Virus record (IMG/VR): IMGVR_UViG_3300027752_000072
Span: 1-29,369 of that record
Length of the DNA: 29,369 nucleotides
Strand: one strand, 5' to 3'
Origin: a virus
The position numbers and the translations under genes were made by a program. The notes below the pieces were generated by a model, which was not told the origin of the DNA, did not search any database, and saw only the letters and a program-made list of their open reading frames with translations. Of the stretch, positions 3,976 through 29,369 are shown piece by piece (within the stretch, counting starts at the first letter, position 1; each line of letters starts with the position of its first letter).

Positions 3976-4007
3976 AAAAACGTGTTTTAATGCTTCTTTA
4001 AAACACG
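3976..4007 (-). terminator. Rho-independent terminator after the glutaredoxin gene
   Basis: On the minus strand a perfect 10-bp stem (CGTGTTTTAA at 4007-3998, TTAAAACACG at 3990-3981) with a 7-nt loop is followed at once by TTTTT (3980-3976). It lies 14 nt past the glutaredoxin stop and before the next promoter box. Confidence 0.85.
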
Positions 4008-12839: not shown

Positions 12840-13309
12840 TATTTCCACCACTCCTCAAACGGAAACACAACCCATTTGTCTGTGTCCGGTGTTATTTCTA
12901 CGGCATAGTAATCCACATCCTCAAACGAAGATGTAGTCTTGTTAATGAGTGTTGCAGTTTTAATATCTGCAAAGTAGTCTGGCTTATCCATAGCATTAGT
13001 GATACCAAGTAACGTTGTACCTGTATCGTTTATGTCGTCAACTAATAGTATGTTGCTAGAATGTTTCTCTGTGATCTTGTCTACTGCTTGATGATCCTTG
13101 CTACCTGCTTCACCCCTAGTTTGCCACTGTAAAGGTATAAACGGTACATTGTAATAATGACTGAGCATTACTCCCATCTGTAAACCACCTCTATTAGGAC
13201 CAACAATAACATCAGGTTTCCAGTTGCTCAATGCCATCTGTCTAGTAATATCTAACAGATACTGCTTGAACATTGTGTCTGTAACGTATAGTTTATCTGT
13301 ATCTTGCAT
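12839..13309 (-). CDS. Purine-type phosphoribosyltransferase
   Basis: The 156 aa protein is a type I phosphoribosyltransferase: VIVGPNRGGLQMGVMLS (35-50) is the dinucleotide region, ILLVDDINDTGTTL (87-100) the PRPP-binding loop, and the C-terminal DKWVVFPFEEWWK matches the W-VFPWE motif of xanthine/hypoxanthine PRTs. It would join a purine-like base to PRPP. The ATG at 13309 lies exactly where transcription from the promoter at 13316-13344 should begin, so the mRNA appears leaderless; a TTG at 13348 would lie within the -35 box. In a deazaguanine cluster it could salvage a base or a precursor, but ordinary purine salvage is equally possible. Confidence 0.85.
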   Translation of the reverse strand: MQDTDKLYVTDTMFKQYLLDITRQMALSNWKPDVIVGPNRGGLQMGVMLSHYYNVPFIPLQWQTRGEAGSKDHQAVDKITEKHSSNILLVDDINDTGTTLLGITNAMDKPDYFADIKTATLINKTTSSFEDVDYYAVEITPDTDKWVVFPFEEWWK

Positions 13310-15381: not shown

Positions 15382-15560
15382 TACATACCGTTCTTTTTGT
15401 CTTGAATTTCAGCACGTCTAGCCTTAGATAGTTTACCTAATTCGCCTAATGCCTTTCTTGCTCTTGCGGCTGATGCCTTAACACCTTTAACTTCGAACTT
15501 CTCGCTCTCTGCTAGGTACTCTTCCATCATTGCCTTGATTTGTAAATGTACTTCTGTCAT
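15381..15560 (-). CDS. Small basic histone H1-like protein
   Basis: The 59 aa protein starts MTEVHLQIKAMMEEYLAESE at 15560, behind GGAGAATAGA and one base after the queD stop. The second half, VKGVKASAARARKALGELGK then LSKARRAEI, is a Lys/Arg/Ala-rich helix resembling histone H1-like DNA-binding tails known in bacteria and marine phages. It may coat or organise DNA. It overlaps the downstream glycosyltransferase gene by 1 nt. DNA binding is inferred from composition only. Confidence 0.7.
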   Translation of the reverse strand: MTEVHLQIKAMMEEYLAESEKFEVKGVKASAARARKALGELGKLSKARRAEIQDKKNGM

Positions 15561-15561
15561 T

Positions 15562-15963
15562 CTATTCTCCATATTGTTGTATATTTGCCATAGTATCCAC
15601 TGGATACTCTATTTCGCAACCGTTTTCGTTATCTTCGGCTACTGAAATCTTTATGTAACGACCTGGATACTTGTTCTGTATCTCTGCCGCCAAGTCTTCT
15701 GCAATCATCTCACAGGACTTGTAATCTAGTTGTAGCTCTGCACTTCCATACAGCTTCTCCAACCAACGTTTAAATTGTATAAACTCAATGTCTCTATCAT
15801 CATGGAACACTTCGATCCACACTTTAAAGTGAAACGTGTGTCTATGCGGATAGCCTAGGAAACTAACGTCATACTCGTCGCCAGTTGCTAGGTTAGGATC
15901 AGTTAGTGCCGCAGGATACTTATGTATACCTTCTTTGCTAAATGTTACCCAAATACTTCTCAT
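15562..15963 (-). CDS. queD: QueD/PTPS-family protein (6-carboxy-tetrahydropterin synthase-like)
   Basis: The 133 aa protein has the three zinc-binding histidines of the PTPS/QueD family in order: GIH (H14) and PHRHTFHF (H40, H42). The length is close to the usual 120-140 aa. QueD makes 6-carboxy-5,6,7,8-tetrahydropterin from dihydroneopterin triphosphate, between FolE and QueE. Unusually, no cysteine lies between H14 and H40, where QueD and PTPS carry the catalytic Cys. The C-terminal catalytic segment reads LDYKSCEMIAEDLA, with a Cys at another place. It could be a divergent active form or a repurposed pterin-binding enzyme. AGGATAAG lies before the start. Confidence 0.82.
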   Translation of the reverse strand: MRSIWVTFSKEGIHKYPAALTDPNLATGDEYDVSFLGYPHRHTFHFKVWIEVFHDDRDIEFIQFKRWLEKLYGSAELQLDYKSCEMIAEDLAAEIQNKYPGRYIKISVAEDNENGCEIEYPVDTMANIQQYGE

Positions 15964-15983
15964 TTTCTTATCCTGTTAAATTA

Positions 15984-16013
15984 AAGTGTAGCAACACGAA
16001 TGCCACTACACTT
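15984..16013 (-). terminator. Rho-independent terminator after the cold shock gene
   Basis: On the minus strand a 13-bp stem (with three G-T pairs) closes a TTCG tetraloop: AAGTGTAGTGGCA against TGTTGCTACACTT. TTTAATTT follows. It lies 11 nt past the cold shock stop and 20 nt before queD. Confidence 0.75.
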
Positions 16014-16024
16014 AGTCTTCTTTA

Positions 16025-16222
16025 TTACACTATATTAGACGCTTGTGGTCCTTTGTCGCCTTCTATAATGTCGTAAGTAACGGATTGATTCTCATCAAGA
16101 GTTTTAAATCCATCGCCTTGGATCGCTGTGTGATGTGCGAACACATCTTTACTGCCATCTTCAGGGGTAATAAATCCAAACCCTTTTGTTGCATCAAACC
16201 ATTTTACTGTACCATTTGCCAT
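16025..16222 (-). CDS. Cold shock domain protein (CspA family)
   Basis: The 65 aa single cold shock domain contains both nucleic-acid-binding motifs: KGFGFI (RNP1, 13-18) and DVFAHHTAI (RNP2-like, 26-34), within [20 protein letters not shown]. Such proteins bind single-stranded RNA or DNA and melt RNA structure. Phage copies may favour translation of phage mRNA. The gene follows a 29-codon reading frame and a short hairpin in the leader, and ends at a clear terminator. The family call is secure. Confidence 0.95.
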
Positions 16223-16233
16223 TTTCTTTCTCT

Positions 16234-16323
16234 CTATTGTGAAGTCTTACCTTCGGTTATTAATTCTAAAGGTAAATCCTTCAAAATATTATGAGGATTT
16301 ATATCCTCGTAATTCTGTTTCAT
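16234..16323 (-). CDS. Possible 29-aa leader peptide upstream of the cold shock gene
   Basis: An ATG at 16323 overlaps the stop of the upstream membrane-protein gene by 4 nt (ATGA) and opens a 29 aa frame ([20 protein letters not shown]...) ending 12 nt before the cold shock start. The coupling geometry is the same as for genuine genes here. It may be a real micro-protein or a translated leader that keeps ribosomes flowing to the cold shock gene. Confidence 0.4.
16293..16308 (-). other. Short perfect hairpin in the cold shock gene leader
   Basis: GAGGAT-ATAA-ATCCTC forms a 6-bp perfect stem with a 4-nt loop, extendable by a wobble and an A-T pair. It lies about 70 nt before the cold shock start, inside the 29-codon frame. 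It has no T tract, so it is not a terminator. A regulatory role is speculative. Confidence 0.35.
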
Positions 16324-16526
16324 AAGAACAAGTCCTTGTCTTTAAGAGCTTCTGCTCTTGTTGTTCCCATTTCTTTTAGTGCTTCGTCTATGTCAAAGTC
16401 ATAGTACGCACCTGTTAATTTTCTTAAATAGTTACGCTCAGAGATCATAACGGAACTTTCCCATGCCATCCAGCCCATGGCTAGTAACACTGCAATCCCG
16501 AATATAAATCCTAATAACTCAATCAT
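16320..16526 (-). CDS. Small membrane-anchored hypothetical protein
   Basis: The 68 aa protein starts with a transmembrane helix (LLGFIFGIAVLLAMGWMAW, about 4-22), followed by a soluble tail (ISERNYLRKLTGAYYDFDID...). The start overlaps the upstream 41 aa gene by 8 nt and has no good ribosome binding site, so coupling is likely. Function unknown. Confidence 0.65.
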   Translation of the reverse strand: MIELLGFIFGIAVLLAMGWMAWESSVMISERNYLRKLTGAYYDFDIDEALKEMGTTRAEALKDKDLFL

Positions 16527-16644
16527 CGTAGTCGTTCTGCATATCTATCAGACGCTCCTTGAATTCTGTTATTAACTCGATAACCTCTTCGATCTCTTGC
16601 ATATCTTCTTTGGTATCGATTTCTACTTCTAATTTTATCTTCAT
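16519..16644 (-). CDS. Very small acidic helical protein, near-leaderless start
   Basis: A 41 aa frame starts at 16644 (MKIKLEVEIDTKEDMQEIEE) and continues as an amphipathic acidic helix. It fills the gap between the promoter at 16653-16681 and the membrane-protein gene, which it overlaps by 8 nt. No Shine-Dalgarno sequence precedes it, and the predicted transcription start is 0-3 nt from the ATG. Function unknown. Confidence 0.6.
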   Translation of the reverse strand: MKIKLEVEIDTKEDMQEIEEVIELITEFKERLIDMQNDYDD

Positions 16645-16652
16645 ATATATGT

Positions 16653-16681
16653 ATTTTATAACATTTTGTTACGAATGTCAA
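16653..16681 (-). promoter_or_regulatory. Sigma70-type promoter
   Basis: TTGACA (16676-16681) and TAAAAT (16653-16658) on the minus strand are 17 nt apart. The promoter overlaps the last codons of the glycosyltransferase-like gene and would drive the small genes and the cold shock gene. Confidence 0.75.
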
Positions 16682-17669
16682 CCATTTTTTGTGATAACTT
16701 CAAACAAATGTTGTAGTTATGATTTAATATGTCCTGCACTTCATCCGAGTTTACCTTAGTATTGAAGTCTTCTATAGTAAAATTGTTTAGTTGTGCTAGA
16801 ACGTGACCAAGCCTTTTATCATCGTTTAGTGTGTCATATTTTTCGTCAAACAACATAGGGAATGTTTTAAACCCTAATGCATGTAACTCTTTAAGTGTAT
16901 TCTTATTACCTAAGATCATAAAAGGTCTCTTAGATAGTAATGCTCGCCATGTCTTTTCGGTAACGTATACTGTGTGCCAGTATTCAAAATCCGTATAGTA
17001 CTCTACATCATGATAGTAAAACGTTTCTGCTATCAAGTCAAAGTATGTATTTCGTTGCATGTCAAGTAACTGTTCGCCAGGTGCATAGGCAGATGTGTCT
17101 GCTACTGGCTTACCTTCCCATTCAAAACCCTCTGCACTCTTAGGAATTAATGTGTGGAAGTGTTCGTTTAGATTGTAATGCCAATCGTTGAACCAAGTCC
17201 ACTCGCACTTGTCAAGTAAACCGTTCTCGTAAATGTAGTTAAGACCGTCCTCTCTGTGCTTACGTTGTGCTGAGTTGAAGTAAGTAAACAGTTTAGTTGG
17301 GGTAACATCTGTTGTGTTAACTGCATCACTTCTAACTGACGGCAGTAACATGTTAAAGCAACCAACTGAACCAAAGCGTTCAACTGGATTATTCCAAAAA
17401 CACCAGTCTTCGTATATCTTTTCAGCGTTTAGGTTGCCCCAGTGCAAATGTATACGAGCAGGTGGGAAGTCTGCTTTATCGCACTGTTTGTGTATAGCAT
17501 CAATGAGTGTTATCTGTTCCTTAACCCATTTCTGATCAGGGTCCATAGATAAAAACATTCCACCTTCGTAACCGTTAGATATATGCACATCAATAGTATA
17601 CAGCCGAACTGCGTGTAGTCTTGTGTGTAAATTATCTAGGTCGTAATCCGCATTAATTTCAATCAGCAT
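16656..17669 (-). CDS. Putative glycosyltransferase-like protein (paralogue 2)
   Basis: The 337 aa protein shares ordered blocks with the product of 4260-5318: WGNLNAEKIYEDWC, KLFTYFNSAQRKHR, TYFDLIAETFYYHD, VTEKTWR, KRPFMILGNKNTL and LHALGFKTFPMLFDEKYD. The conserved part spans most of the chain, so this is a full paralogue and not just a shared domain. The C-terminal pattern is like donor-binding regions of fucosyltransferase/exostosin-type enzymes, a tentative assignment. It overlaps the upstream gene by one base (TGATG). Its different acceptor-side N-terminus suggests the two paralogues use different substrates. Confidence 0.6.
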   Translation of the reverse strand: MLIEINADYDLDNLHTRLHAVRLYTIDVHISNGYEGGMFLSMDPDQKWVKEQITLIDAIHKQCDKADFPPARIHLHWGNLNAEKIYEDWCFWNNPVERFGSVGCFNMLLPSVRSDAVNTTDVTPTKLFTYFNSAQRKHREDGLNYIYENGLLDKCEWTWFNDWHYNLNEHFHTLIPKSAEGFEWEGKPVADTSAYAPGEQLLDMQRNTYFDLIAETFYYHDVEYYTDFEYWHTVYVTEKTWRALLSKRPFMILGNKNTLKELHALGFKTFPMLFDEKYDTLNDDKRLGHVLAQLNNFTIEDFNTKVNSDEVQDILNHNYNICLKLSQKMVDIRNKML

Positions 17670-18199
17670 CAGTCAATCACTTTATCGCCAACGTAATTGG
17701 ACCAGTCAGTATAGTTACGTCTGTCCATTAAGTCATGTAAGTTGTGACACCATACACCTGAGTTAGTACCTTTAAATTCTCTGTCATCTAATTTAATAGT
17801 TGCATTGTAATTGAATTGTTTGACGTAAGGTAACCTAACAGCAATCATAGGTATGAACTTATCATACTCATTCCAGCCATTGTCATGGAACCATTCGTGA
17901 TTAGCATAGCCACTGTCGAAGTCTAGTGTTACCCAAACGTCTGCTTTAATAAGCTCAGAGACAATATGATCCCACTCTTTCCATTCCTCAACATCATCGC
18001 CTGGTTGGAAACTATTAGCACAACCTAAGTAAGCATGGTCAATACCATTGTCTAAGCATCGCTGTAATATCTCTTTAGGGTTCTGTTTGCCAATAACAAA
18101 CAATGTTTGCTTACCGAACAACGGAGTCTTCTCTACTTCTTCACCTATAAAAAACTTAGGATCTTCTCCAAAGTCATCTCTACCTTCTACTGTTGCCAT
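17669..18199 (-). CDS. Conserved-type hypothetical protein
   Basis: The 176 aa protein contains QTLFVIGKQNPKEILQRCLD (about 31-50), DHAYLGCANSFQPGDD, DVWVTLDFDSGYANHEWFHD and a C-terminal SGVWCHNLHDLMD. Alternating strand-helix units with Asp/His clusters suggest a TIM-barrel-like or metal-binding fold, but I cannot name a family. AAGGAGAATAG precedes the start, just after the groES-like gene. It overlaps the glycosyltransferase-like gene. Its place between a chaperonin gene and a glycosyltransferase-like gene gives no firm clue. Confidence 0.72.
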   Translation of the reverse strand: MATVEGRDDFGEDPKFFIGEEVEKTPLFGKQTLFVIGKQNPKEILQRCLDNGIDHAYLGCANSFQPGDDVEEWKEWDHIVSELIKADVWVTLDFDSGYANHEWFHDNGWNEYDKFIPMIAVRLPYVKQFNYNATIKLDDREFKGTNSGVWCHNLHDLMDRRNYTDWSNYVGDKVID

Positions 18200-18200
18200 G

Positions 18201-18500
18201 CTATTCTCCTTCTGTTTGTACAGCTACTACACTGTTGCCTTTGATAAACAAATAGTCTATCCCGTCAATCTTTAATCCTTCGCCATGTCCTTTAATGAAC
18301 AGAACAACATCGCCTTCATTAAGACCAATTGGTTCTCTAACTCCCAAGCCGTTGTATGCACCCGGTCCCACTGACACGACTGTGCCTGAGATTGGTTTGT
18401 CTACTGCACCAGCTGAAAGTATAATACCTCCGCCAGTAACTGTTTCTGATTCTGTTTCAACAACGACAATGAAGTCGCCTTGTGCTTTTATTTTACCCAT
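18201..18500 (-). CDS. GroES-like co-chaperonin (gp31-like role)
   Basis: The 99 aa protein has the Cpn10 layout: IKAQGDFIVVV at the N-terminus, a mobile-loop region ETVTGGGIILSAGAVDKP (about 20-37, with the hydrophobic GGIIL that contacts GroEL), SGTVVSVGPGAYNG, LNEGDVVLFIKGHGEGLKID and YLFIKGNSVVAV. T4 gp31 replaces host GroES so that GroEL can fold the major capsid protein; this protein probably does the same. It overlaps the upstream dehydrogenase gene by 13 nt. The family assignment is strong. Confidence 0.88.
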   Translation of the reverse strand: MGKIKAQGDFIVVVETESETVTGGGIILSAGAVDKPISGTVVSVGPGAYNGLGVREPIGLNEGDVVLFIKGHGEGLKIDGIDYLFIKGNSVVAVQTEGE

Positions 18501-19417
18501 GTTATATAATTCCTTAGTATATCTTTACCGTTAATTCTGTTGTCGAATGCCTCTTTGGCATTGTCTCTATCGTAGCCTTCGCCCCATAGATGATTTACTT
18601 TAATTTTGCCTTTCTTAACTAACTGTTCTGCTTCTATCATACTATTAATGAAGTCAGGGTTCCTTGGACTAGGACATTTAATTGTAATGTTCTCCCACAG
18701 AAACTTGCTGAAGTCTAAGTTATCAACTACTTTCTCCGCACCAACAACATACGTTCCGTTTGTTTTAACATAACCGTTATGCATGTATTGTGGCTTACTA
18801 GACAAGTCAATGAAGGCATCGAAGCCTTGTTGCTTCTTGTGTACATCTAGGTGATGTCCACTATGACTAATAAAGTCTACATCGGTTGCCGTTTCCCAAT
18901 AGTCTTTAAATCCTCTGCCATATACTGTGAAGTCTGAATAGCCATTATGTTTTAAGTAATCGTATATAACTCTTGCAAGAAAGCCTGAGCCAACAATAGC
19001 AATGCTCTTGCTCAAGTCTTTGTCCATAATACTCTTAGCAATGTTAATGCCACATGCAACTGGCTCTAATATATATCTAGGTGACGCTTGCGATACTTTA
19101 ACGAAGCTACCTATTGGAGTGTTGTAGTAATCAGCAAACCCAGGCTCGCCTCTAGTAGCAACTATGTCGCCTACTTTAATACCACTGCTACTCACTCCGG
19201 TCTTAGAACCTAACTTGGTTACTTTACCAATACATTCATGTCCTTGTATTTCTTTAGGCAATGTAGTAAACGTGCCGTCATACATAGCAACATCACTACT
19301 ACAAATGCCTGTGAGAATACTTTGTACTTCTATCTCATTTGCTTTAGGCTCAGGCTTGTCCCAGATAGTTTCAATAATATCTCTATTGCCTGTTGTGTGT
19401 AAGAGTTTAACCTTCAT
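18488..19417 (-). CDS. Medium-chain zinc-dependent dehydrogenase
   Basis: The 309 aa protein is an MDR-family (alcohol/sorbitol dehydrogenase-like) enzyme: LTGICSSDVAMYDG (C39), GHECIGKV (H60, E61), EPVACG (E118, as in sorbitol dehydrogenases) and the NAD loop IVGSGFLARV (141-150). The catalytic zinc site looks intact, while the structural zinc lobe of four cysteines is absent, which explains the shorter length. It overlaps the Gfo/Idh/MocA gene by 11 nt. The pair could modify a sugar or polyol; the substrate is not visible. Confidence 0.85.
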   Translation of the reverse strand: MKVKLLHTTGNRDIIETIWDKPEPKANEIEVQSILTGICSSDVAMYDGTFTTLPKEIQGHECIGKVTKLGSKTGVSSSGIKVGDIVATRGEPGFADYYNTPIGSFVKVSQASPRYILEPVACGINIAKSIMDKDLSKSIAIVGSGFLARVIYDYLKHNGYSDFTVYGRGFKDYWETATDVDFISHSGHHLDVHKKQQGFDAFIDLSSKPQYMHNGYVKTNGTYVVGAEKVVDNLDFSKFLWENITIKCPSPRNPDFINSMIEAEQLVKKGKIKVNHLWGEGYDRDNAKEAFDNRINGKDILRNYITWVK

Positions 19418-20309
19418 GATAAACCTCTAAGTGTTTGTGAATCCATGTGTCAATAGTCTTATGTGTGTCATAGTCTTCTATTTGACCTTTCTCAATCATC
19501 TCACCATATGCTTCTGCAGGACACAATCCAAAGTCCCACTTGTAGGAACTGTCAGTAGTCTGTACTACAATGCTCTGGTCATCAATACCTTCCTTCCAAC
19601 TAGCACTTACTTCTACTATAACTTTATCGTTAAGTAACCACTTCTCTGTGGCATAGTCGCATACATCATATACGCCGTCAACATTAACAGCACCATAGTC
19701 TGATCCTGTTAAGTCTTCTAAGTTCCATTTCTGCATCATTAAATGATTAACTCTAGTAAAGTTTTCTATCTTACCAAAGTGTGTAAGCAGTTGACAATAT
19801 AAGTGTGGGAATAAATCTAATGCAACTCCGCCCCACGATTGCTTTCTGTTTGTACTCCAATAGCCTGCGTTAGGAACTCTGTTCTTGTTCAGCCAGTTAA
19901 CTTTGATGCTAGTAATATCATCGATAGTACCAACGTTGTCTAAGAATCCGTAAGTATCTCTGTACATATTATTCTTGCACATAATAAACTTAGTGTGTGG
20001 ATGCTTGTCGCACAAAGCATTCCATTGATCCGCACTAGGCAAGCCAGGCTTCTCAATGAATACAACTTTAGTATAAGGTGCAATGCTGTCAGCAAAATAT
20101 GTATGCAAAAAGTTAGGCACACATATCACTGCTACATCAAATACACCATTTACTGTGTCAATTGTTGTATGGTCTGCTGGGTTTGAATTGTCAACAGTTG
20201 TTACATCGTAACCAAGTTTCATTAACTCAGTTAGATATACATTGCCACCAATACCGCCTACGCCTATTAGTAATGCACGTTTTCCGTTATCGTTGACAAG
20301 TTTCACCAT
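19407..20309 (-). CDS. Gfo/Idh/MocA-family oxidoreductase
   Basis: The 300 aa protein has the Rossmann loop LLIGVGGIGGNVY (13-25), VAVICVPNFLH and the family signature EKPGLPS (EKP at 86-88). WGGVALDLFPHLYCQLLTHF gives the conserved Asp...His of the C-terminal domain. Members oxidise sugars, sugar nucleotides or inositols with NAD(P). It begins on the stop codon of the transglycosylase gene (TAATG) and overlaps the dehydrogenase gene, so three enzymes are translated as a unit. Which carbohydrate it acts on is unknown. Confidence 0.87.
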   Translation of the reverse strand: MVKLVNDNGKRALLIGVGGIGGNVYLTELMKLGYDVTTVDNSNPADHTTIDTVNGVFDVAVICVPNFLHTYFADSIAPYTKVVFIEKPGLPSADQWNALCDKHPHTKFIMCKNNMYRDTYGFLDNVGTIDDITSIKVNWLNKNRVPNAGYWSTNRKQSWGGVALDLFPHLYCQLLTHFGKIENFTRVNHLMMQKWNLEDLTGSDYGAVNVDGVYDVCDYATEKWLLNDKVIVEVSASWKEGIDDQSIVVQTTDSSYKWDFGLCPAEAYGEMIEKGQIEDYDTHKTIDTWIHKHLEVYHEG

Positions 20310-21844
20310 TACAAATTATCCACTAGGTTGTTTAATGCTGTCTCTTGAATAGCATCGAACTCGCCTTCGACTTGCTGTTCTACTTCTTCGTCAAAGAACA
20401 AACTGGAAGCACTTGCCTTAAACGCTGTGTCTGAATCCTTGTGCTTGTTATTGCTAACATCATCTAGGAAAGCATGAGCATCATCTAATAACTGGTGAGG
20501 ATTGTCACTTGCGAATAACTCTTCCACAAACGTGTTAAACATTAGCAAGTTTCTAGGCGTGTATAAACTTTCTTGATTAAGCTTCTTGCCTTTCTTCTGC
20601 CAGTTTCTCCAATCCAACTTGTAGTTCTCGAACTCAATAGTTGCTAGGCTGTTTGCTTCTTGTACTGCTCTAATGTGCATATAAACATTGTGTGACATAA
20701 GCATACCATATGTAAAACTATCCCAAGAAGTTTTACCTTCCTTGTGGATCTTGTTTAACATGCCTGGAGCATACCAATTAACATCACCTGTTACAAGTCT
20801 ACTACCAATCTCGCTCTCCCAAGGGAAAGGATTTTGTGATATGTTGCCTGGACTAAAGTGAGAGTTTGCTTTGTTATCAAAACATTTCTCCATGATGTAA
20901 CTCATTTGCCCACTTGTAATCTTGTTCCTAGTATACACTAAGCCGTTAGCACTACTAATATAAGGACTAGCACAATCAAAACTAACAGTGATATTAGGAT
21001 TAACATGCTCTCTAAGTTGTCGCTGTACACTTGTAAGCATTACTGCCCACTCTAGTTTACTTGTACCTAGGAAGTGAATCCAGTCTCTGTCTTGTAGTTT
21101 GTTATCATCACGTAAGATAATAATACGTTTCAGTGCCATGTGCATGTCGCGGATATTGTTACCACCCATGCCCCATCCTTCTGTGTCGTAGTCCTTAACT
21201 TTCTGATACCATTCTTCTGCATCGTCCCAATATGTTCCTTGCAGTACATTCAAGAACTTTGTCTTGCCTTGTCTGTGATCCATAAACCAATCTAAGTTGT
21301 ATGCTGTACATTTCAAGCACTCATCGAAGTTCTGTAGTCCAGTCTTCTCTTTAAAGCCTGGCTTACATGCCCAACTAGGAACATCAAATGTCATACTCCA
21401 GTCCGCTGTATGTTCTAACCAGTTAAGGATCTTGCCCCTAACTTTGTCAGCATCACCTTTGTATCCAACGTCACCGGGCTTCTCAAAGAAGTTCTCCCAG
21501 TCAAACTTAATAACACCCTTACCAATCTGGAAGCCACCGGAGTCGCCTACAATAGTTGTGTTACTTCTGTCTCTATGCTGGATAATGTGTTCCATTACCT
21601 TGCTCTTCTCAACATCTAAGTAAGCATGACCGGCACTATAAAGTCCCTTGTTGTAATAGTAATATCCTTTCTCTTTATCGAGGAAGTTCATACCTTCAAA
21701 GCCATGCTCAAAGCCTTTAGGAATTCTGCCGTCTGGAATATAACCCTCAACACTATTACATCTACCAAGTAGCTCTGTCATAAAGCCACTGATAGCTGGG
21801 AGGAAAGTTGCGTAATCGCTGTGTTTAGAGGATAAATCTCTCAT
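20309..21844 (-). CDS. TGT-fold guanine transglycosylase, DpdA-like
   Basis: The 511 aa protein carries the tRNA-guanine transglycosylase signature in order: DSGGFQ (101-106), MTFD (D154, in the place of the guanine-binding Asp), NVLQGTYWDD (Q202), GWGMGGNN (GG at 227-228) and SFDCASPYISSANGLVYT, where D290 matches the nucleophile of FDCVLPTR. All base-exchange residues appear present. The CxCxxC zinc motif of tRNA-type TGT is absent. DpdA enzymes in phages insert 7-deazaguanines into DNA; with folE, queD and queE in the window this is the favoured reading, but tRNA is not excluded. AAGGAGTTAAG precedes the start, directly after the clamp gene. Confidence 0.85.
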   Translation of the reverse strand: MRDLSSKHSDYATFLPAISGFMTELLGRCNSVEGYIPDGRIPKGFEHGFEGMNFLDKEKGYYYYNKGLYSAGHAYLDVEKSKVMEHIIQHRDRSNTTIVGDSGGFQIGKGVIKFDWENFFEKPGDVGYKGDADKVRGKILNWLEHTADWSMTFDVPSWACKPGFKEKTGLQNFDECLKCTAYNLDWFMDHRQGKTKFLNVLQGTYWDDAEEWYQKVKDYDTEGWGMGGNNIRDMHMALKRIIILRDDNKLQDRDWIHFLGTSKLEWAVMLTSVQRQLREHVNPNITVSFDCASPYISSANGLVYTRNKITSGQMSYIMEKCFDNKANSHFSPGNISQNPFPWESEIGSRLVTGDVNWYAPGMLNKIHKEGKTSWDSFTYGMLMSHNVYMHIRAVQEANSLATIEFENYKLDWRNWQKKGKKLNQESLYTPRNLLMFNTFVEELFASDNPHQLLDDAHAFLDDVSNNKHKDSDTAFKASASSLFFDEEVEQQVEGEFDAIQETALNNLVDNL

Positions 21845-21845
21845 C

Positions 21846-22601
21846 TTAACTCCTTGCAGGTAATAAGTATGTAAACTTACTCATTCCACTATCAACAGAT
21901 ATCTGCAATAGTCCTTGATTATTAAAGCTCATGTCAACCATAGCACTGTTGCCTAGTCGTAGAATCTTTAACACGATATCCAAAGGCCAATTCCATTCAG
22001 TTGTAATCTCGCCCTCAACATTATTGTCAATAAGGATCTTAGTCCTGTCGCTACCTTGTCCACCAATGTAAAAATACAATGCTCCGCCTTCTGTCTTAGG
22101 CATAAAGTTTGGCTCATACGCTGATAAGGCACCAGTGAAGTATGCTAAGTTCTTCATAGGCTCAATGCCTGGATTGATTGTTACATCAAACTCTGCACCT
22201 TTAAACTTAATATCTTTAAGTTGCTGGTTGATAACATCTGACAACATAAATCTATAATGTGCATCTCCGCCTTCTTCACTAACAAATTGTACTTCAGTAG
22301 GAATCTGTTCGCCATTCCTTTCTTGCGTGTTAACTTGTACAGTTGCTCCGTCAGTATCATAGCCTGGATACTGTAAGAAACTTTTCAGTACACCCATTCT
22401 GCTTAAACCTACTGTTGCATCTGCAAAGTCTTCTACAGGATTGTTAGTTGTACCTTTAACAATAACTGTCTTGTCTGCGTCCACAGTCTCAATCTCAGTC
22501 TGTGTTGTCGTGCCTTTAATTTTGACCATTTCAAAAATGCCTAGGTCATGTGTATGCCTGATAACATCTTTTAGTGTGTCTTTAATGTAATTATTACTCA
22601 T
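21846..22601 (-). CDS. Probable DNA polymerase sliding clamp (gp45-like)
   Basis: The 251 aa protein starts MSNNYIKDTLKDVIRHTHDL at 22601, behind TGGAGGAAATA. Size, beta-rich composition, position next to the DNA polymerase and the terminal strand SGMSKFTYLLPARS fit the T4 gp45 clamp family (228 aa in T4). Regions such as SRMGVLKSFLQYPGYD and FTGALSAYEPNFMPKT match the domain-repeat style of clamps. In T4 the clamp tethers gp43 and also activates late transcription. It has its own promoter (22632-22660). Identification rests on context and general likeness and not on a diagnostic motif. Confidence 0.72.
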   Translation of the reverse strand: MSNNYIKDTLKDVIRHTHDLGIFEMVKIKGTTTQTEIETVDADKTVIVKGTTNNPVEDFADATVGLSRMGVLKSFLQYPGYDTDGATVQVNTQERNGEQIPTEVQFVSEEGGDAHYRFMLSDVINQQLKDIKFKGAEFDVTINPGIEPMKNLAYFTGALSAYEPNFMPKTEGGALYFYIGGQGSDRTKILIDNNVEGEITTEWNWPLDIVLKILRLGNSAMVDMSFNNQGLLQISVDSGMSKFTYLLPARS

Positions 22602-22631
22602 TATTTCCTCCATAAGAAACTTGTTTCATAT

Positions 22632-22660
22632 ATTATACTACTACTATTTAGATAAGTCAA
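22632..22660 (-). promoter_or_regulatory. Sigma70-type promoter for the clamp gene
   Basis: TTGACT (22655-22660) and TATAAT (22632-22637) on the minus strand are 17 nt apart. The leader is about 25 nt and contains the short dyad GAAAC-TT-GTTTC (22616-22627). The spacer includes CTAAATA, similar to late promoter boxes of some T4-like marine phages. Confidence 0.85.
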
Positions 22661-22681
22661 GAAAAATATCATCTTTTTCTT
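22659..22681 (-). terminator. Possible weak terminator after the polymerase gene
   Basis: AAGAAAAA and TTTTTCTT form an 8-bp A/T-rich stem with a 7-nt loop starting 4 nt after the polymerase stop. The T run is inside the stem and no T tract follows. It overlaps the -35 box of the clamp promoter, so its function is doubtful. Confidence 0.25.
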
Positions 22682-22684
22682 CGA

Positions 22685-25378
22685 TTAAAATTCAAAGAAC
22701 GCATCCATTACTTCACTATTGTTAGCTCTGGATAAGTCCCAACCCATGACGCCTAATACATTGTGCATCTTCTTATCCAGCACAGCACCTTCCATTGCGT
22801 CTTCATCGAAAGGTAAGTCTTTGAACCACTGTGGCAAGTTTAATTCATCAGTTGGATATGAAATACTTGTATAGTTCATTGCATTGTTTTTAAGCCTACA
22901 CACAACAACCTTAGCACCATCCATAATAGTCAGGCTGTAGTTATCGCTGTTAGCAAACTTCAAGTTATTGTAATTGATACTTGCTCTTACATGCCCAGGT
23001 ATCATTTTGTTCTCAGGCTCTTCCTTCAGCTTCTCAAGTTTGTACAGACGCATGTTCTGTTCTGGACCTTTGATCTGCTTGTTATACTTCTTAGTGTACT
23101 TGGTAATGTTGTTAGCACGTTTGGGCATACCTTTCTTCCAAGGCTCCAACGACCTAAACATCTCCTTAAAGTCCTTAATCTTGTCAATAACGAAGCTCTC
23201 TTCTTTACCGTTGAGTGCATCAGTTAAGCACTCCTCAAGAAAGTCTTGTATGAATTCTGGAGTATCACTTCGTTTGATATCCATACCCATTACTTTTAGT
23301 TTGCCACCTTCTGGTTGCCACCCTTCAATGTCTAGGCACATAATAGCATAACGCTTCTTAGTGATAAACACACCTGACCTACCAACTACTTCCCTACCAG
23401 CTTTAATAATAGCACCGCGGTCTCTAGTAACACCAAAGTCTCTCATCATAAACTCAGGGAATGTATCTGATACCTTGTCACTGATCTGGTCATACAGTTT
23501 AACTGCTCCTTCCATATCTAGCTCCATACCTTCTGGTAAGGCAGGTGTTGCACTAAAGTATATCGAGTCAGTGTCACCATAGATAATTGTTTCGCCTGTA
23601 TGATCATACTTTCCTGTGAGCATTTTATTAACCTCTGCTCCCATGTGGCGTGTGATCCGCCTGCCCGTTAATGTAGTACTTTGTCCGATACGTTTGTCAA
23701 AGAATCTACAACCTGGATTAAGAATAGCACCATACAAACTGTTCAAGTTAATCTTCTTAACTAACTGTCGCTTGTCAAAGAATGCAATCTCTTCTTTGCC
23801 TACTGCTTCTTTCTTCTTAGCCTGTAGCACTTGTCGTTCAGCATACCAACGCTCTAGTAATCCAGGCACAATGCCCTGCACATCTGTTTTAAACAGTGTA
23901 CCGTTAGCACTAATGCTCCATGGCTGACCACTATCAAACACCAGTGTGTAAACATCAGCACCAGTAACCTCTACTGTGTTGCCGTCCTCCATGTCCAGTG
24001 TCATTACTTTGTCTACGTCTTTGGACATCACTAGTTCATATTCGTTAGTACCAAACTTGCCTAACCATGCATCAGCAAAGGAAGTCTTGTCTAGTTTCAT
24101 TTTGCTGGCAATCTCATCATCAGTGTAGTCCAGTCTTATCTGTCCTACAATAGTTTCGTTAGCCATATTCAATGCACGGAACACACTAGGGTACAAGGAG
24201 TTAATATCCATACTGCCTACCCACTCGTGGAATCCTTTTTGTGGGAATGCCACGTGGGCACCAGCCGCCTGAGTGTTCTCTTTGTCTCTACCTTGTCTAG
24301 GTCTATCTGGAACTACCATGCCACGTCTGTGTGCTTCGTTAATGATTGCTTGTTCAGTAGTTGCCACAGCACCCATTGTAGTAAACAGTAGTACAGTGTT
24401 GTCATGTGCAATAGTATTAGCAAGGTCAATGAACTGTAACTTCTTATCCATGTTTGCAATCAACATAACGTCTTGTATGTTGTACTCCAAGAACTTAGCA
24501 AAGTCGTGATTGTAAAGTCTATCAAGTGATCCTTCGTATGCTACCTTCTTCTCACCTAGCTCTACTTCACCGATGAAGTCTAGTCTATAACTGTGTCGTT
24601 CCTCATAGTTAAACTTTCTATACAGTTGCATATAATCCAAATGTACACGACCAATAAGGTCATAACTTTGTCGCTCACTGCCGAAGTTATCATATGTTCT
24701 TGGCTTTGGGAATTGATCCCACAAACACATCTTACGAGTTTCTGCTTTACCTAGCACTTTAATGATTCTATTAACAGTGTAAGGAATATCATAGCCCTCA
24801 CTGTTCCAGCCACTAATGATGTCTGCATCATCTATTAACTGTAAGAACACCTTGAGCATCTCTGCCTCATCTTTAAACAGAATCACTTCAGGCATGTGCT
24901 TTGCCATGCTTTCTGCTTGTTCCATGTTAAGTGTCTTAGGCGGAACTGCTAGACACACCATTGCGTCCATCCAATCCATGTACACACCGATAGCCGTGAT
25001 AGGCATGAAGGCATCCTCTGGACTACTAAAACCTCTAGTAGGATCAAAGTCTACTTCAATATCGTAGAATGCTGTGTGTAGTTTAGGTTGCTCAACGCCT
25101 TCGTAATGTTTAGCAAGAGTTTTGTTTAGTGGCTTAATGTCAGACTCGAACAATCCATGCTGTCTATTAATAGCACAGTTCTTCTTAAAGTCTTTGTTGT
25201 TAGCACACTTAACCTCAGTTAGTGAATCACCGTACACACTTCTTGAAGTGCCTTTCGGGTCACTGTAATAGAAATTGTAAATAGGTTTGTGTGTGACTAA
25301 AACCCGTTTACTACCAACTCGCTCGGAGACATGAAGTATGTCTCGAGTACGGTCGTGCCATGCATCAACGTAACTCAT
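22685..25378 (-). CDS. 43: Family B DNA polymerase (gp43)
   Basis: The 897 aa protein is almost exactly T4 gp43 length (898 aa). Proofreading exonuclease motifs are FYDIEVDF (D106, E108), SGWNSEGYDIPY (about 189-200) and YNIQD (about 299-303). Polymerase motifs are DINSLYPS (391-398, motif A), KKINLNSLYG (541-550, motif B) and YGDTDS (600-605, motif C). The C-terminus MDAFFEF is a clamp-binding peptide of the T4 type. All catalytic carboxylates are present, with no intein or split. It lies between the DsbA-like and clamp genes and is presumably read from the promoter at 25701-25729. Confidence 0.97.
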   Translation of the reverse strand: MSYVDAWHDRTRDILHVSERVGSKRVLVTHKPIYNFYYSDPKGTSRSVYGDSLTEVKCANNKDFKKNCAINRQHGLFESDIKPLNKTLAKHYEGVEQPKLHTAFYDIEVDFDPTRGFSSPEDAFMPITAIGVYMDWMDAMVCLAVPPKTLNMEQAESMAKHMPEVILFKDEAEMLKVFLQLIDDADIISGWNSEGYDIPYTVNRIIKVLGKAETRKMCLWDQFPKPRTYDNFGSERQSYDLIGRVHLDYMQLYRKFNYEERHSYRLDFIGEVELGEKKVAYEGSLDRLYNHDFAKFLEYNIQDVMLIANMDKKLQFIDLANTIAHDNTVLLFTTMGAVATTEQAIINEAHRRGMVVPDRPRQGRDKENTQAAGAHVAFPQKGFHEWVGSMDINSLYPSVFRALNMANETIVGQIRLDYTDDEIASKMKLDKTSFADAWLGKFGTNEYELVMSKDVDKVMTLDMEDGNTVEVTGADVYTLVFDSGQPWSISANGTLFKTDVQGIVPGLLERWYAERQVLQAKKKEAVGKEEIAFFDKRQLVKKINLNSLYGAILNPGCRFFDKRIGQSTTLTGRRITRHMGAEVNKMLTGKYDHTGETIIYGDTDSIYFSATPALPEGMELDMEGAVKLYDQISDKVSDTFPEFMMRDFGVTRDRGAIIKAGREVVGRSGVFITKKRYAIMCLDIEGWQPEGGKLKVMGMDIKRSDTPEFIQDFLEECLTDALNGKEESFVIDKIKDFKEMFRSLEPWKKGMPKRANNITKYTKKYNKQIKGPEQNMRLYKLEKLKEEPENKMIPGHVRASINYNNLKFANSDNYSLTIMDGAKVVVCRLKNNAMNYTSISYPTDELNLPQWFKDLPFDEDAMEGAVLDKKMHNVLGVMGWDLSRANNSEVMDAFFEF

Positions 25379-25390
25379 TAACTGTCCTTC

Positions 25391-25657
25391 TTATAATTGA
25401 TCTTTACCAACAGCGGCTAGGATAGTTTCAAGCTCATCGAACTTATCACTTTCTACACCGAAGCTAGCCTTGTGTGCTACCTTGATTGCTTTGTTTAGAA
25501 TACCGGGTTTGATATCCATTTCTTCAGCGATTGCTTTAACAGTTTCTCTTAAACCTACTGTTAATGCGTCTACTTCATATAGTACTTGGTCGCCTTCTTG
25601 GATTACTCTTTTAAGTCTTGCAATTTCTTCTGAGTTGAATGTCTTATTAAATGCCAT
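25391..25657 (-). CDS. DsbA-like double-stranded DNA-binding protein
   Basis: This is an 88 aa helical protein. Its second half, AIAEEMDIKPGILNKAIKVA then VESDKFDELETIL, resembles T4 DsbA (89 aa; DELGVDGKMFNRLLALYH, then FEAETEEVVELYD) in length and pattern. T4 DsbA binds DNA near late promoters and helps late transcription. AGAGGACATC precedes the start. The gene opens the replication operon and is preceded by both a sigma70 promoter and an ATAAATA box. The likeness is from memory, without an alignment. Confidence 0.65.
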   Translation of the reverse strand: MAFNKTFNSEEIARLKRVIQEGDQVLYEVDALTVGLRETVKAIAEEMDIKPGILNKAIKVAHKASFGVESDKFDELETILAAVGKDQL

Positions 25658-25681
25658 GATGTCCTCTGTGTCTGTGAAAAA

Positions 25682-25688
25682 TATTTAT
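25682..25688 (-). promoter_or_regulatory. Possible late promoter box in the DsbA-like leader
   Basis: The minus strand reads CATAAATATTTT, with ATAAATA 25 nt before the start at 25657. Together with the sigma70 promoter just upstream this would allow expression both early and late. Confidence 0.4.
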
Positions 25689-25692
25689 GTAC

Positions 25693-25713
25693 AAGCATGT
25701 ATTATACATGCTT
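25693..25713. repeat. Perfect 21-bp palindrome over the promoter -10 box
   Basis: Arms AAGCATGTAT and ATACATGCTT are perfect inverted repeats around a central T. The palindrome covers the -10 box of the minus-strand promoter and lies between divergent genes. No T tract follows on either strand, so an operator is more likely than a terminator. Confidence 0.75.
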
Positions 25714-25729
25714 ATTTAGGCAATGTCAA
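25701..25729 (-). promoter_or_regulatory. Sigma70-type promoter for the DsbA-polymerase operon
   Basis: TTGACA (25724-25729) and TATAAT (25701-25706) on the minus strand are 17 nt apart, a consensus promoter. The spacer includes CTAAATA, and the -10 box is in the centre of a 21-bp palindrome. Confidence 0.88.
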
Positions 25730-25731
25730 TG

Positions 25732-25738
25732 ATAAATA
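25732..25738 (+). promoter_or_regulatory. T4-like late promoter box for the plus-strand operon
   Basis: The plus strand reads TGATAAATACA, with ATAAATA 30 nt before the ATG at 25769 and AGGAGAACAC as ribosome binding site. The same TGATAAATA occurs before the gene starting at 3942. No sigma70 promoter is seen on this strand. Confidence 0.6.
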
Positions 25739-25768
25739 CAACATAAGACACACTTTGTAGGAGAACAC

Positions 25769-26065
25769 ATGTCAGAAGTCGAAAAGAAGATTATACAGAT
25801 CGAGTTAGAAGTAGATACAAAACAGGTTGATAGTAGCCAGAACCCATGGCAGAGATGGATTTGGCTTGCACAGACAGTTGATGCTTGGAGAATATTCCCT
25901 AGGGCATTCCTTAGTGTATACATATTTTTGTTATATTACTCGGTGATGTGGTTCATGGAACTAGAAAACCCAAGCCTAGAGCAGTCAGGTTTGATAAGTA
26001 TTATTGTTGGTGCTGGAGCGGCATGGTTTGGATTGTACGCTGGCACAAGTAAAAATAAGGAATAA
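25769..26065 (+). CDS. Two-helix membrane protein, holin-like architecture
   Basis: The 98 aa protein has a soluble N-terminal region with a basic/aromatic stretch (NPWQRWIWLAQTVDAWRIFP), two hydrophobic helices (about 45-63 AFLSVYIFLLYYSVMWFM, and 74-91 GLISIIVGAGAAWFGLY), and a short charged tail (GTSKNKE). That is the layout of small class II holins, but holins have no shared sequence motif, so this is only a structural likeness. It is the first gene of a late-type operon, with the 2OG oxygenases downstream, which fits late expression. Confidence 0.78.
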   Translation: MSEVEKKIIQIELEVDTKQVDSSQNPWQRWIWLAQTVDAWRIFPRAFLSVYIFLLYYSVMWFMELENPSLEQSGLISIIVGAGAAWFGLYAGTSKNKE

Positions 26066-26066
26066 C

Positions 26067-26381
26067 ATGTTTGTAAAACACTTTGTAAGATTTAATACTA
26101 GAGAAGAATTAGACGATTACGATGTTATCGAGTTCTTCGATATCGTGCAGAGTGTTGTTCCTGCTAAACTTGTCACAGGATTAGACGTTGAAAACTCGGA
26201 GCGAGTTGAAGTTGACGTACTCATTTACGAAGAAGAAGATGAGGATGGTCCTATCTTTATACATGAAATTATATTAGAAGAAGAGATTACCGAAGAAGAA
26301 GGTAACCGTATTTCTGATGCACTTATAGAAGAATTTCCAGATCAAGACCCGTTTACGTTCGAAGCATCAATAGAAGTATAA
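26067..26381 (+). CDS. Acidic hypothetical protein
   Basis: The 104 aa protein starts MFVKHFVRFNTREELDDYDV at 26067, behind AAGGAATAAC; an in-frame start at 26004 lies inside the previous gene. Asp and Glu are very abundant (YEEEDEDGPIF; LEEEITEEEG), a composition seen in DNA-mimic and adaptor proteins as well as in structural proteins. It starts one base after the previous stop and overlaps the oxygenase start by one base. Function unknown. Confidence 0.75.
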   Translation: MFVKHFVRFNTREELDDYDVIEFFDIVQSVVPAKLVTGLDVENSERVEVDVLIYEEEDEDGPIFIHEIILEEEITEEEGNRISDALIEEFPDQDPFTFEASIEV

Positions 26382-27172
26382 TGGCTAGAGACAAGAACGG
26401 CATACCCTTTCACCCAGTTGAATACAACCCAGACTACCCTCGCATCAAGTGTAACGTATGTGGACTAATGAATAGTTGCACACATGGACTTACTGATGCT
26501 GTGTCTTGGTTCCCCAGGCTACCCGTACTGTTAGAGAATGGTATGATAGAAAGCATAGATGACTTTGTACTACATGAGTGGACCGAATGGAGTCTACAAC
26601 GTATAGTTGATGCACAAATCAAAGACCACAAGTTAATTATAGATAACTTCTTACACCCAGAGCTATTGTTAAACTGCCTAGCCAGTTGGCCCCAAGAGAT
26701 GTATCCAATTGAGGTACCAGGTCGAACTCAGCAAGACATAGAACATAATGATGTGTATCAGTTCTTGTTTGACAAAGTGATCAACGATGAGTATGTCAAG
26801 TGTGCTATTGCAGACAAGTTTGCATTAGAGTGCGACTACGAAGCAAGTGCATGGCTTTGGGAAGACACTGAACAGTTTACTATTAATGATGTGCATGTTG
26901 ACTACGACAAGTTTAACATCACATTCGGATTATATTTGCCGTTAGATGATAGCATCAAAGAGTACGGCACACAGTTTTGGAAGCCTAACGAAATACCTGC
27001 AGATTTAGATACAAGTTTAATCAGAGAAAACTGTACTCTAATCGACCAAGTACCGTTCGTAGCAAACACAATGTACTTTATGCCTAGGACAATACACGCT
27101 TGGCATAGCAGTCCAATCATAGACAAACCAATGACGAGAAGACATGTTTACGGATATTATAAATCAATTTAA
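26381..27172 (+). CDS. 2OG-Fe(II) oxygenase-like protein with N-terminal Cys cluster
   Basis: The 263 aa protein has a prolyl-hydroxylase-type jelly-roll core: NDVHVDYDKFNITFGLYLP (H172, D174), EYGTQFW, then FVANTMYFMPRTIHAWHSS (distal H239) and an Arg near 253-254 that would bind 2-oxoglutarate. The N-terminal IKCNVCGLMNSCTHG (C24, C27, C33, H35) looks like a small zinc site and is not part of the usual domain. These enzymes hydroxylate proteins, nucleic acids or small molecules and are common in marine T4-like phages. It overlaps the next oxygenase gene by 29 nt. Confidence 0.8.
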   Translation: MARDKNGIPFHPVEYNPDYPRIKCNVCGLMNSCTHGLTDAVSWFPRLPVLLENGMIESIDDFVLHEWTEWSLQRIVDAQIKDHKLIIDNFLHPELLLNCLASWPQEMYPIEVPGRTQQDIEHNDVYQFLFDKVINDEYVKCAIADKFALECDYEASAWLWEDTEQFTINDVHVDYDKFNITFGLYLPLDDSIKEYGTQFWKPNEIPADLDTSLIRENCTLIDQVPFVANTMYFMPRTIHAWHSSPIIDKPMTRRHVYGYYKSI

Positions 27173-27803
27173 TCACATAGAACAGCGTATCAAGGATACC
27201 GAAGTAATAATGGAGCCATGGCCTCATATGTTTATACCGGAGTTCTTTACGTCTGACTTCTATAGAACTGTACAAGAGTTTGAGCAACATCCAGAACTAG
27301 AAATAGATGCTAATAACAATGGCAGAAAGCAGTATGCTTACAACAAATACAACAAAGACTACGAAGCATTTACTGTTAAGTTGTTTGACTTGTTTGCTGA
27401 AAAGTTTGATTATGCAACCAACGTATCAGTGCCAGCAACTACGAACTTCTGGGCAGATGATTCAGAATTGGTTATTACTGACATACATGTAGATGCATTC
27501 CATGATACACCATTTACTATTAGCGGACAGATATACTTGCCAGATGATTTAACCCAAAGACATTATGGCACTGGACTGTATACTTACGAAGGTGATAACT
27601 TACAACAAGATGCTATACAAGACGAAGGTACTGCCCATCCGCATTCTGCTACTAACGAAGATAACTTTAAACTGTTTGGTCGTGTACCGTTCTATCCAAA
27701 CTGTATGCTAGTCACAACTAATCATCCACATAGTTGGCATGCCGCACCTAAGATTGATAAGGGTGATGTTAGAAAAAGTTTAATGCTTCGCTGGAAGGTT
27801 TAA
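27144..27803 (+). CDS. 2OG-Fe(II) oxygenase-like protein
   Basis: The 219 aa protein carries TDIHVDAFHDTPFTISGQIY (H115, D117), HYGTGLYTYEG, then FYPNCMLVTTNHPHSWHAAP (distal His about 196) and R210 in RKSLMLRW. This is the complete iron and 2-oxoglutarate ligand set. Its length is normal for the single-domain phage type. GAGAAG lies just before the ATG; a later in-frame ATG (residue 23, MEPWPHMFIPEFF) is a possible alternative start. It is the last gene of the plus-strand operon, and its stop overlaps the tail-fibre stop on the other strand (TTAA). The substrate is unknown. Confidence 0.82.
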   Translation: MFTDIINQFNHIEQRIKDTEVIMEPWPHMFIPEFFTSDFYRTVQEFEQHPELEIDANNNGRKQYAYNKYNKDYEAFTVKLFDLFAEKFDYATNVSVPATTNFWADDSELVITDIHVDAFHDTPFTISGQIYLPDDLTQRHYGTGLYTYEGDNLQQDAIQDEGTAHPHSATNEDNFKLFGRVPFYPNCMLVTTNHPHSWHAAPKIDKGDVRKSLMLRWKV

Positions 27804-29369
27804 CTAGCAATAGCTCTGTCAGTCATTCTACGCCAATTAGTTCCATCAAAGAAACACATTACCGCACCGCCAGTCTCATTAGGTACAAACACCATTGCTC
27901 CTGCAGGAGAACTGCTAGGTAACGTTGTCACGTTATAACTTGGGAACACTGGTAAGCCATTGTCCTCAACTAAGAACCCTTGGTCAACCTGTGCATCTGT
28001 GGCTGAAGTAATGCTACCTAAGTCACTGCCGTAGTCTGCTGTAGTAATAATTGCATCGTAGTTTGTGAACGTACTGAATGCTATGCTCTTTGTTTCGCCT
28101 ACTGTTACTGTATCATCAGCAAAAGTAAATCCAGCATCAGCACCTAAACTACCGCTGTTGTTGAACTGTACCTGTGTTGTACTACCTGCTACTGAACCGC
28201 CTGCGGATGTGAAAGAAATAACACCTGTACTTGAATTGTATGCTAGTTGTCCTGACGCATCAGTTACACTAACAGCCAGTCTTGCTCTTGGGTTAGTGTA
28301 GAATAAGTTGGATGACCCTTCTGTTAAATTGTCACTGTCAAAGTTTGCAATACTACTAACTGTACCTGTAACGGCACCAGTTACATTACCAGTTAAGTTA
28401 CCTACTATGGCTGTACTAAATGTCTTAGCACCTGCTATAGTTTCAGTGCCTGTTGTGTGAACAATACTAGATGCGTTAGCAATCTCTGTGCCAATCATAT
28501 CTGTGATTCTACCAGTAGTAGCAAATGTACTATCGTTATCATCCCAAACATCATTAGTGGCATTGTATGCCGATAGAGCAAAGTCGCTAACTGCTAGGTC
28601 AGGCATAGTGTATGAGAAGAAGCCTGATGTACTATTGTATGCAATGTCTCCACCGCTACTAAATAATCCTCTGATCTCAGCACTGTCTGCCGTTATAGCA
28701 CCTGTTGAGCTATTATAGTTTACACCACTGCTACCACTAACACTCGCTCTGGCTCTTGCATCTGTGTAATACTGATTGGAGCCTTCTGTAATACTGCTTG
28801 TACTTAAACCGATAACGTTAGCACCTGTGGTTACTAAGTTACCGCTTACTGTTACATTGTTTGGTACGCCGTTTGGTCTAATTGATCCAACCACGTTACC
28901 ATCTAGGTCACCTGTAAACGATCCTGCTACTAATGTTTCTGCACCAAATGTCCACTCACCTTCGCTCTCGTCCCATGTGAATGTAACATTAGTCTCATCG
29001 CCTCTATTAACTTCGAAGCCTGCATCGACTATGTTGTCGGCGCCTGTGAATCCACTGTTAAGAACAAGTATGTTGTCTTCAATGTTTAATGTTGCTGTAT
29101 TAATTGTGGTAGTTGTACCACTAACTGTTAAGTTTCCAGTAATAGTTGCATCGCCATCAATACTAATGCTGTCCGATGTAATGTCATTACTCAGTAAGTT
29201 TCCACTCACTGTTAAGTTGTTTGACACTGTCATGTCCACCGGTGCTATAACAGATGCTGTAGTTAATACTTCGCTCCAAGTAACTGTTTGGCTACCGCCG
29301 GTCATATTAAATAGTCTTAAGTTAGAACCGTCACTGATCCATAACTTCGAGCCTGCTGGATTGATTGTA
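27800..29369 (-). CDS. Tail-fibre-type structural protein, C-terminal part (runs off right edge)
   Basis: At least 522 codons are visible; the frame stays open to the right edge (TINPAGSKLWISDGSNLRLF precedes the internal Met), so the true start is outside. Composition is Ser/Thr/Gly/Asn-rich with repeated beta-type motifs: NLTVSGNL, TITGNLTVSGTTTTINTATL, GNLTGNVTGAVTGTV, and a duplicated module ITEGSNQYYTDARARASV / LTEGSSNLFYTNPRARLAV, each followed by a YNSSTG segment. The C-terminus (AMVFVPNETGGAVMCFFDGT, then NWRRM) is of the kind seen at the ends of marine phage fibre proteins. It probably forms a trimeric fibre or a virion surface fibre. Confidence 0.85.
   Translation of the reverse strand, partial: TINPAGSKLWISDGSNLRLFNMTGGSQTVTWSEVLTTASVIAPVDMTVSNNLTVSGNLLSNDITSDSISIDGDATITGNLTVSGTTTTINTATLNIEDNILVLNSGFTGADNIVDAGFEVNRGDETNVTFTWDESEGEWTFGAETLVAGSFTGDLDGNVVGSIRPNGVPNNVTVSGNLVTTGANVIGLSTSSITEGSNQYYTDARARASVSGSSGVNYNSSTGAITADSAEIRGLFSSGGDIAYNSTSGFFSYTMPDLAVSDFALSAYNATNDVWDDNDSTFATTGRITDMIGTEIANASSIVHTTGTETIAGAKTFSTAIVGNLTGNVTGAVTGTVSSIANFDSDNLTEGSSNLFYTNPRARLAVSVTDASGQLAYNSSTGVISFTSAGGSVAGSTTQVQFNNSGSLGADAGFTFADDTVTVGETKSIAFSTFTNYDAIITTADYGSDLGSITSATDAQVDQGFLVEDNGLPVFPSYNVTTLPSSSPAGAMVFVPNETGGAVMCFFDGTNWRRMTDRAIAS

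Follow-up and report, generated by a model that had tools for sequence, protein, structure and literature searches.

The window analyzed here is the whole stretch of DNA under study, a 29,369-base fragment of a virus record. Within it, a 111-bp gap separates a leftward operon, in which a dsbA-like gene is followed by the gene of a family B DNA polymerase, from a rightward operon starting with a gene of unknown function (Table 1). The gap holds every element listed in an earlier note on this DNA. The DsbA-like protein belongs to a family that is also matched by T4 DsbA (E=2e-40), and it is 79–95% identical among relatives; its structure is predicted to be all-helical with low confidence, and the model was too poor for use. 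For the polymerase, the best matches among cultured phages are found in jumbo phages, e.g., Sinorhizobium phage Phosso and Agrobacterium phage Atu_ph07 (40–46% identity). The sliding clamp was identified through its predicted fold (mean pLDDT 55.7), which matches PCNA with a best E of 1.6e-8 and a probability of 1.00, after a sequence search of solved structures with DsbA and the clamp had given no useful match. Other products of the window are QueE, GTP cyclohydrolase, GroES, and a cold-shock protein. At the DNA level, no similarity of the window to cultured phages was found. The window belongs to a T4-related group of bacterial viruses; a marine habitat is inferred from the kind of relatives found.

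Table 1. Coordinates of genes, promoter elements and the palindrome in the window
Feature	Position	Strand	Details
dsbA-like gene, 88 aa, first in leftward operon	25391..25657	-	phrog_639, E=1e-5
Family B (T4-type) DNA polymerase gene, second in leftward operon	22685..25378	-	phrog_262, E=5e-196
First gene of divergent operon, 98 aa, unknown function	25769..26065	+	phrog_10198, E=5e-19
Sliding clamp (gp45/PCNA-like) gene, 255 aa	21846..22613	-	Predicted structure vs PCNA
Putative −35 hexamer TTGACA, early sigma70-type promoter of dsbA-polymerase operon	25724..25729	-	Sequence read directly
Putative −10 hexamer TATAAT, same early promoter	25701..25706	-	17-nt spacer; sequence read directly
Late-promoter-like box ATAAATA	25682..25688	-	13 nt past −10 box, 42 nt from TTGAC start
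Putative late-promoter box TGATAAATAC for divergent operon	25730..25739	+	Contains TGATAAATA at 25730-25738
Second TAAATA, within early-promoter spacer	25713..25718	-	Present here and in nearest relative only
21-bp perfect palindrome AAGCATGTATTATACATGCTT	25693..25713		10-bp arms, one central base (25703)
Putative clamp early promoter TTGACT-17-TATAAT	22632..22660	-	TAAATA box 22650-22645 inside spacer

About 57 bases of the gap are sufficient to hold an early promoter, a late box in the same direction, and a late box facing the opposite way. The earlier note had described a consensus sigma70 promoter with its −10 box at the centre of a palindrome, an ATAAATA box in the same direction, and a box for the divergent operon. 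The first was confirmed to the base, the central base of the palindrome being the fourth base of TATAAT, and both boxes were found as described, with ATAAATA reading from 25688 to 25682 on the minus strand and TGATAAATA on the plus strand. Within 15000–29369, the dsbA promoter is the sole match to the sigma70 consensus in 12 of 12 positions. Based on standard sigma70 spacing, the early transcription start is predicted near 25694 on the minus strand. The geometry of T4 late promoters would place the late start of the same strand near 25676, and the late start on the plus strand is predicted near 25744. The minus-strand late box does not have the G that is found 2 bases upstream of TAAATA in many late boxes of the group. 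The second TAAATA, in the early-promoter spacer, is probably incidental.

A set of 376 noncoding upstream regions from the group, some of them taken from overlapping relatives, was scanned for hexamers commoner in sense than in antisense orientation; no motif was preset. TAAATA was present in 103 sense vs 38 antisense regions, and the list of enriched hexamers also includes ribosome-binding-site and sigma70 hexamers. The extended form GATAAATA was found in 36 sense vs 9 antisense regions, and among the genes behind it are those for tail-fibre, baseplate, and head/virion structural proteins. By this distribution, GATAAATA behaves as a T4-type late-promoter motif in the group. In T4 and S-PM2, the late promoter is TATAAATA/NATAAATA (PMC2984593, PMC1524935). 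The late boxes of the group share the TAAATA core and the enrichment before virion genes with the T4 late promoters (TATAAATA, gp55/gp33/gp45), whereas their consensus is nearer to GATAAATA or NATAAATA than to TATAAATA. Also as in the T4 late system, a gp55-family late sigma factor is encoded in a distant relative of 178 kb (G014; E 9e-89) and a PCNA/gp45-type clamp in the window. No gp55-family sigma factor was seen in the window or in close relatives, all of which are fragments. MotA and AsiA domains were found neither in the window nor in ten relatives, mostly fragments, while the T4 positive control gave both; that the group is without MotA is therewith suggestive only.

Using DsbA as query, 80 related loci were obtained, yielding 42 distinct promoter sequences; the promoters of relatives are not independent of each other. 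One of the loci (L003) is part of the same contig as L001 (99.7% identity to the window) and therefore carries no evolutionary information. TTGAC is invariant in the 42 distinct dsbA promoters, which were chosen by having TTGAC, and the −10 box is conserved as well. TAAATA follows in 37 of them, 31 times at 42 nt and six times at 41 nt from TTGAC; this downstream box is absent in one clade, comprising five distinct sequences among L020 and L022-L040. Where the early spacer has 16 rather than 17 nt, the late box usually follows the −10 box after 14 rather than 13 nt, keeping the total constant. All 11 distinct close sequences, and L082 as well, have the divergent GATAAATA box. Averaged over columns, identity in the close group reaches 1.00 in TTGAC, 0.98 in the −10 box, and 1.00 in TAAATA, but only 0.69 in those parts of the palindrome arms that lie beyond the −10 box; across the 42 promoters, most columns between the elements hold little information. 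None of 84 other consensus early promoters, taken from 636,921 bases of the window and related sequence, has TAAATA at 41–42 nt. Judged by spacing, the early/late arrangement is specific to dsbA promoters, and the identity values indicate that the promoter boxes are under constraint and the palindrome is not. The earlier description of the gap as a dense divergent control region is supported, in the form of one early and two late promoter-like elements, all kept in relatives.

The clamp promoter is the other recurrent early/late overlap, with eight distinct sequences. TAAATA stands 10 nt from TTGAC in 8 of the 84 other early promoters, and all eight are clamp promoters, that of the window included. 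In T4, the DNA polymerase (gene 43) and the clamp (gene 45) are both among the middle genes. As a separate observation, the spacer of the clamp promoter is unusually conserved in distant members of the group (L103, L106, L109, L110, L112, L129, and L132), where it typically reads TTGACTTTTCTAAATAGTAATGTATAAT and, as in the window, contains the TAAATA box.

With a probability of roughly three in four, we regard the elements in the gap as an early and a late promoter that together serve the replication operon, arranged back-to-back with another late promoter and belonging to a 'middle' class that does without MotA. What follows on promoter activity, timing, start sites, and mutual exclusion is inferred. 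Shortly after infection, unmodified host RNA polymerase would transcribe dsbA and the DNA polymerase gene from the sigma70 promoter. The late ATAAATA promoter, recognized by a gp55-like sigma factor, would then keep the replication operon on, and the second late promoter, TGATAAATA, would switch on the divergent operon from its back-to-back position. The two predicted starts on the minus strand are about 18 bp apart, with the late one downstream, and the divergent late box directly adjoins the early −35 box; for this reason, the three polymerase footprints should overlap and allow only one complex at a time. The change of the sigma factor would itself be the switch, and since the promoters overlap physically, the transition from early to late would presumably need no repressor. 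The replication operon could thereby show middle-like expression without a MotA activator.

Overlapping early and late promoters have been proposed for genes of the T4 MotA class in RB49 and S-PM2, which are both without MotA; in S-PM2, a few such genes were without middle expression by Q-PCR (PMC2984593). The group studied here resembles these phages in several respects: putative early and T4-type late promoters are combined at the dsbA-polymerase operon and at the clamp gene, a sigma70-type early promoter (12/12 consensus in the window) stands upstream of a replication gene, and a T4-type late box in the same direction overlaps it. Unlike in RB49 and S-PM2, the distance from TTGAC to TAAATA is fixed at 41–42 bp in most of the group, the polymerase operon has dsbA as its first gene, and a divergent late promoter sits immediately next to the −35 box. 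The promoter array would extend the earlier proposal to an uncultured marine group and names two operons, dsbA-polymerase and clamp. Stacked early and late promoters at fixed spacing suggest how replication genes could stay on from the early to the late phase.

The palindrome was considered with respect to both chance and conservation. Dinucleotide shuffles of the window are expected to contain 0.1 perfect palindromes with arms of at least 10 bp and a spacer of 0–1; with spacers of up to 8, 0.3 are expected vs 2 observed. A second perfect inverted repeat, CGTGTTTTAATGCTTCTTTAAAACACG, is located at 3981-4007 with 10-bp arms and a 7-nt loop, just upstream of a minus-strand TGATAAATA late box (TAAATA from 3971). 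TATAAT itself supplies two of the ten palindrome pairs, and the A that mostly comes after the −10 box usually adds a third. When left halves were randomly joined to right halves within a set of 92 early promoters of the group, ten of ten pairs were reached with a probability of 3.6e-4 per promoter, and in shuffled promoter sets the chance of arms of at least 10 bp in any of the 92 was about 5%. The palindrome is unusual, yet not compelling given the number of possible places. Perfect palindromes with arms of at least 8 bp were counted in 4 of the 92 early promoters vs about 0.3–0.7 expected, an excess that was noticed after the fact and that concerns mostly other positions and other genes. Without this mild excess, there would be no reason to consider a function of such palindromes further.

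According to the earlier note, a protein bound to the palindrome could switch off polymerase expression and favour late genes; lack of conservation in relatives, together with the use of only one start, was named there as speaking against it. The comparison of relatives was carried out and gave the first of these two outcomes, as the palindrome is perfect in this species only among the 42 distinct dsbA promoters. In the nearest relative (L004; 83% DNA identity over the locus), the site reads AAGCATGTATAATACTTGCTT with nine of ten pairs, and the single difference to the window between TTGAC and TAAATA is the arm substitution that breaks the symmetry. In nine further close relatives, 4–6 of the ten pairs are present. 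No second copy with up to 3 mismatches was found within the 29-kb window, and elsewhere in viral contigs the exact palindrome occurs only in the nearly identical L001. The pattern TTGAC-N14-CATGTATAATACATG occurs in eight other viral contigs with unrelated contexts, some of them apparently leaders of stable RNA genes. The proposed switch is unsupported. Most likely, judging from the relatives, the palindrome is coincidental and private to this lineage rather than a conserved operator, and a conspicuous palindrome of this kind should not be taken for an operator before relatives are checked.

DsbA itself had been named as a candidate for self-regulation through the palindrome. The T4 protein binds dsDNA and was reported on A/T-rich sites over late promoters; its effect in vitro was undetectable and it is non-essential (PMC2988020). 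The window protein resembles it in family (phrog_639) and size, while its gene lies beside the polymerase gene and not, as in T4, beside gene 33. Relatives without the palindrome have a highly conserved DsbA, so any conserved self-regulation must work independently of the palindrome; autoregulation by DsbA is a possibility that found no support.

Regarding its origin, the palindrome might have been born of quasi-palindrome correction, a mutational process that makes imperfect inverted repeats perfect, here by template switching in replication. It would then be functionless, which is compatible with the promoter array as the preferred reading. In agreement with this, the nearest relative holds the 9/10 quasi-palindrome at the same site, one substitution away, but the direction of the change is not polarisable because the arms of the next relatives diverge too much; we consider such an origin possible, though rather unlikely.

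Less probable is a true operator, at which a dimeric repressor of phage or host would cover the −10 box and shut the early promoter, so that polymerase expression falls and late transcription takes over, with relatives using other fast-evolving operators. The perfect 10-bp arms lie exactly on the −10 box, as does the dyad in classical phage repressor operators of this position, and the excess in the early promoters points the same way. In the relative G012, where the polymerase gene has its own promoter between dsbA and polymerase (L132:18778, minus strand), a 17-bp palindrome, TACTGTATAATACAGTA, which is one of the four with arms of at least 8 bp, is likewise centred on the −10 box, with an overlapping palindrome in the spacer. 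However, unlike classical operators, the site is not conserved: one change in an otherwise identical core reduces it to 9/10 pairs in the nearest relative, and 4–6 pairs remain in the other close ones. Furthermore, the window holds no second site copy, no helix-turn-helix repressor family was found among its proteins scanned, the other promoters with TTGAC-N14-CATGTATAATACATG are unrelated, and the palindrome excess was spotted post hoc. Slightly more doubtful still is the wider idea that early promoters of the group carry lineage-specific, fast-turning palindromic operators with a co-evolving repressor shutting early genes, the 21-bp palindrome being one version. A hairpin in RNA or DNA (terminator or cruciform), in place of a protein site, is a very improbable role for the repeat: the minus strand folds to an 11-bp stem with a 3-nt loop, but this fold is no better than those of shuffles (z −1.27), for which reason an RNA hairpin was rejected, no T-run adjoins, and the repeat, most of which precedes the predicted early start, is not conserved.

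Further observations concern other early promoters and start codons. A general CCAnAAAAnnGG inverted repeat in early spacers, an idea that came from examples like TTGACTTCTACCAGAAAAACCGGTATAAT, was rejected, as dyads in 69 non-redundant spacers were no more frequent than column composition predicts (z at most 2.3). On the minus strand of the window, the early promoters at 998-970 and 1770-1742 have near-identical spacers, TTGACTTCTACCAGGAAAACCGGTATAAT and TTGACTTCTACCAGAAAAACCGGTATAAT, respectively, and stand before small genes that neighbour each other. Relatives also have similar CCAnAAAAnnGG spacers, in many cases ahead of leaderless genes. Many genes of the group look leaderless (window; L103-L138). 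In 18 cases, the distance from the end of a late box (TAAATA) to the start codon is exactly 5 nt, vs 0 cases in the antisense control; with T4 geometry, the +1 position would then be the A of ATG. Also, 22 of the 92 consensus early promoters end 6–8 nt before ATG, with a peak at 6. The leaderless-looking genes include the phosphoribosyltransferase gene of the window (13344-13309 on the minus strand, ATG at 13309).
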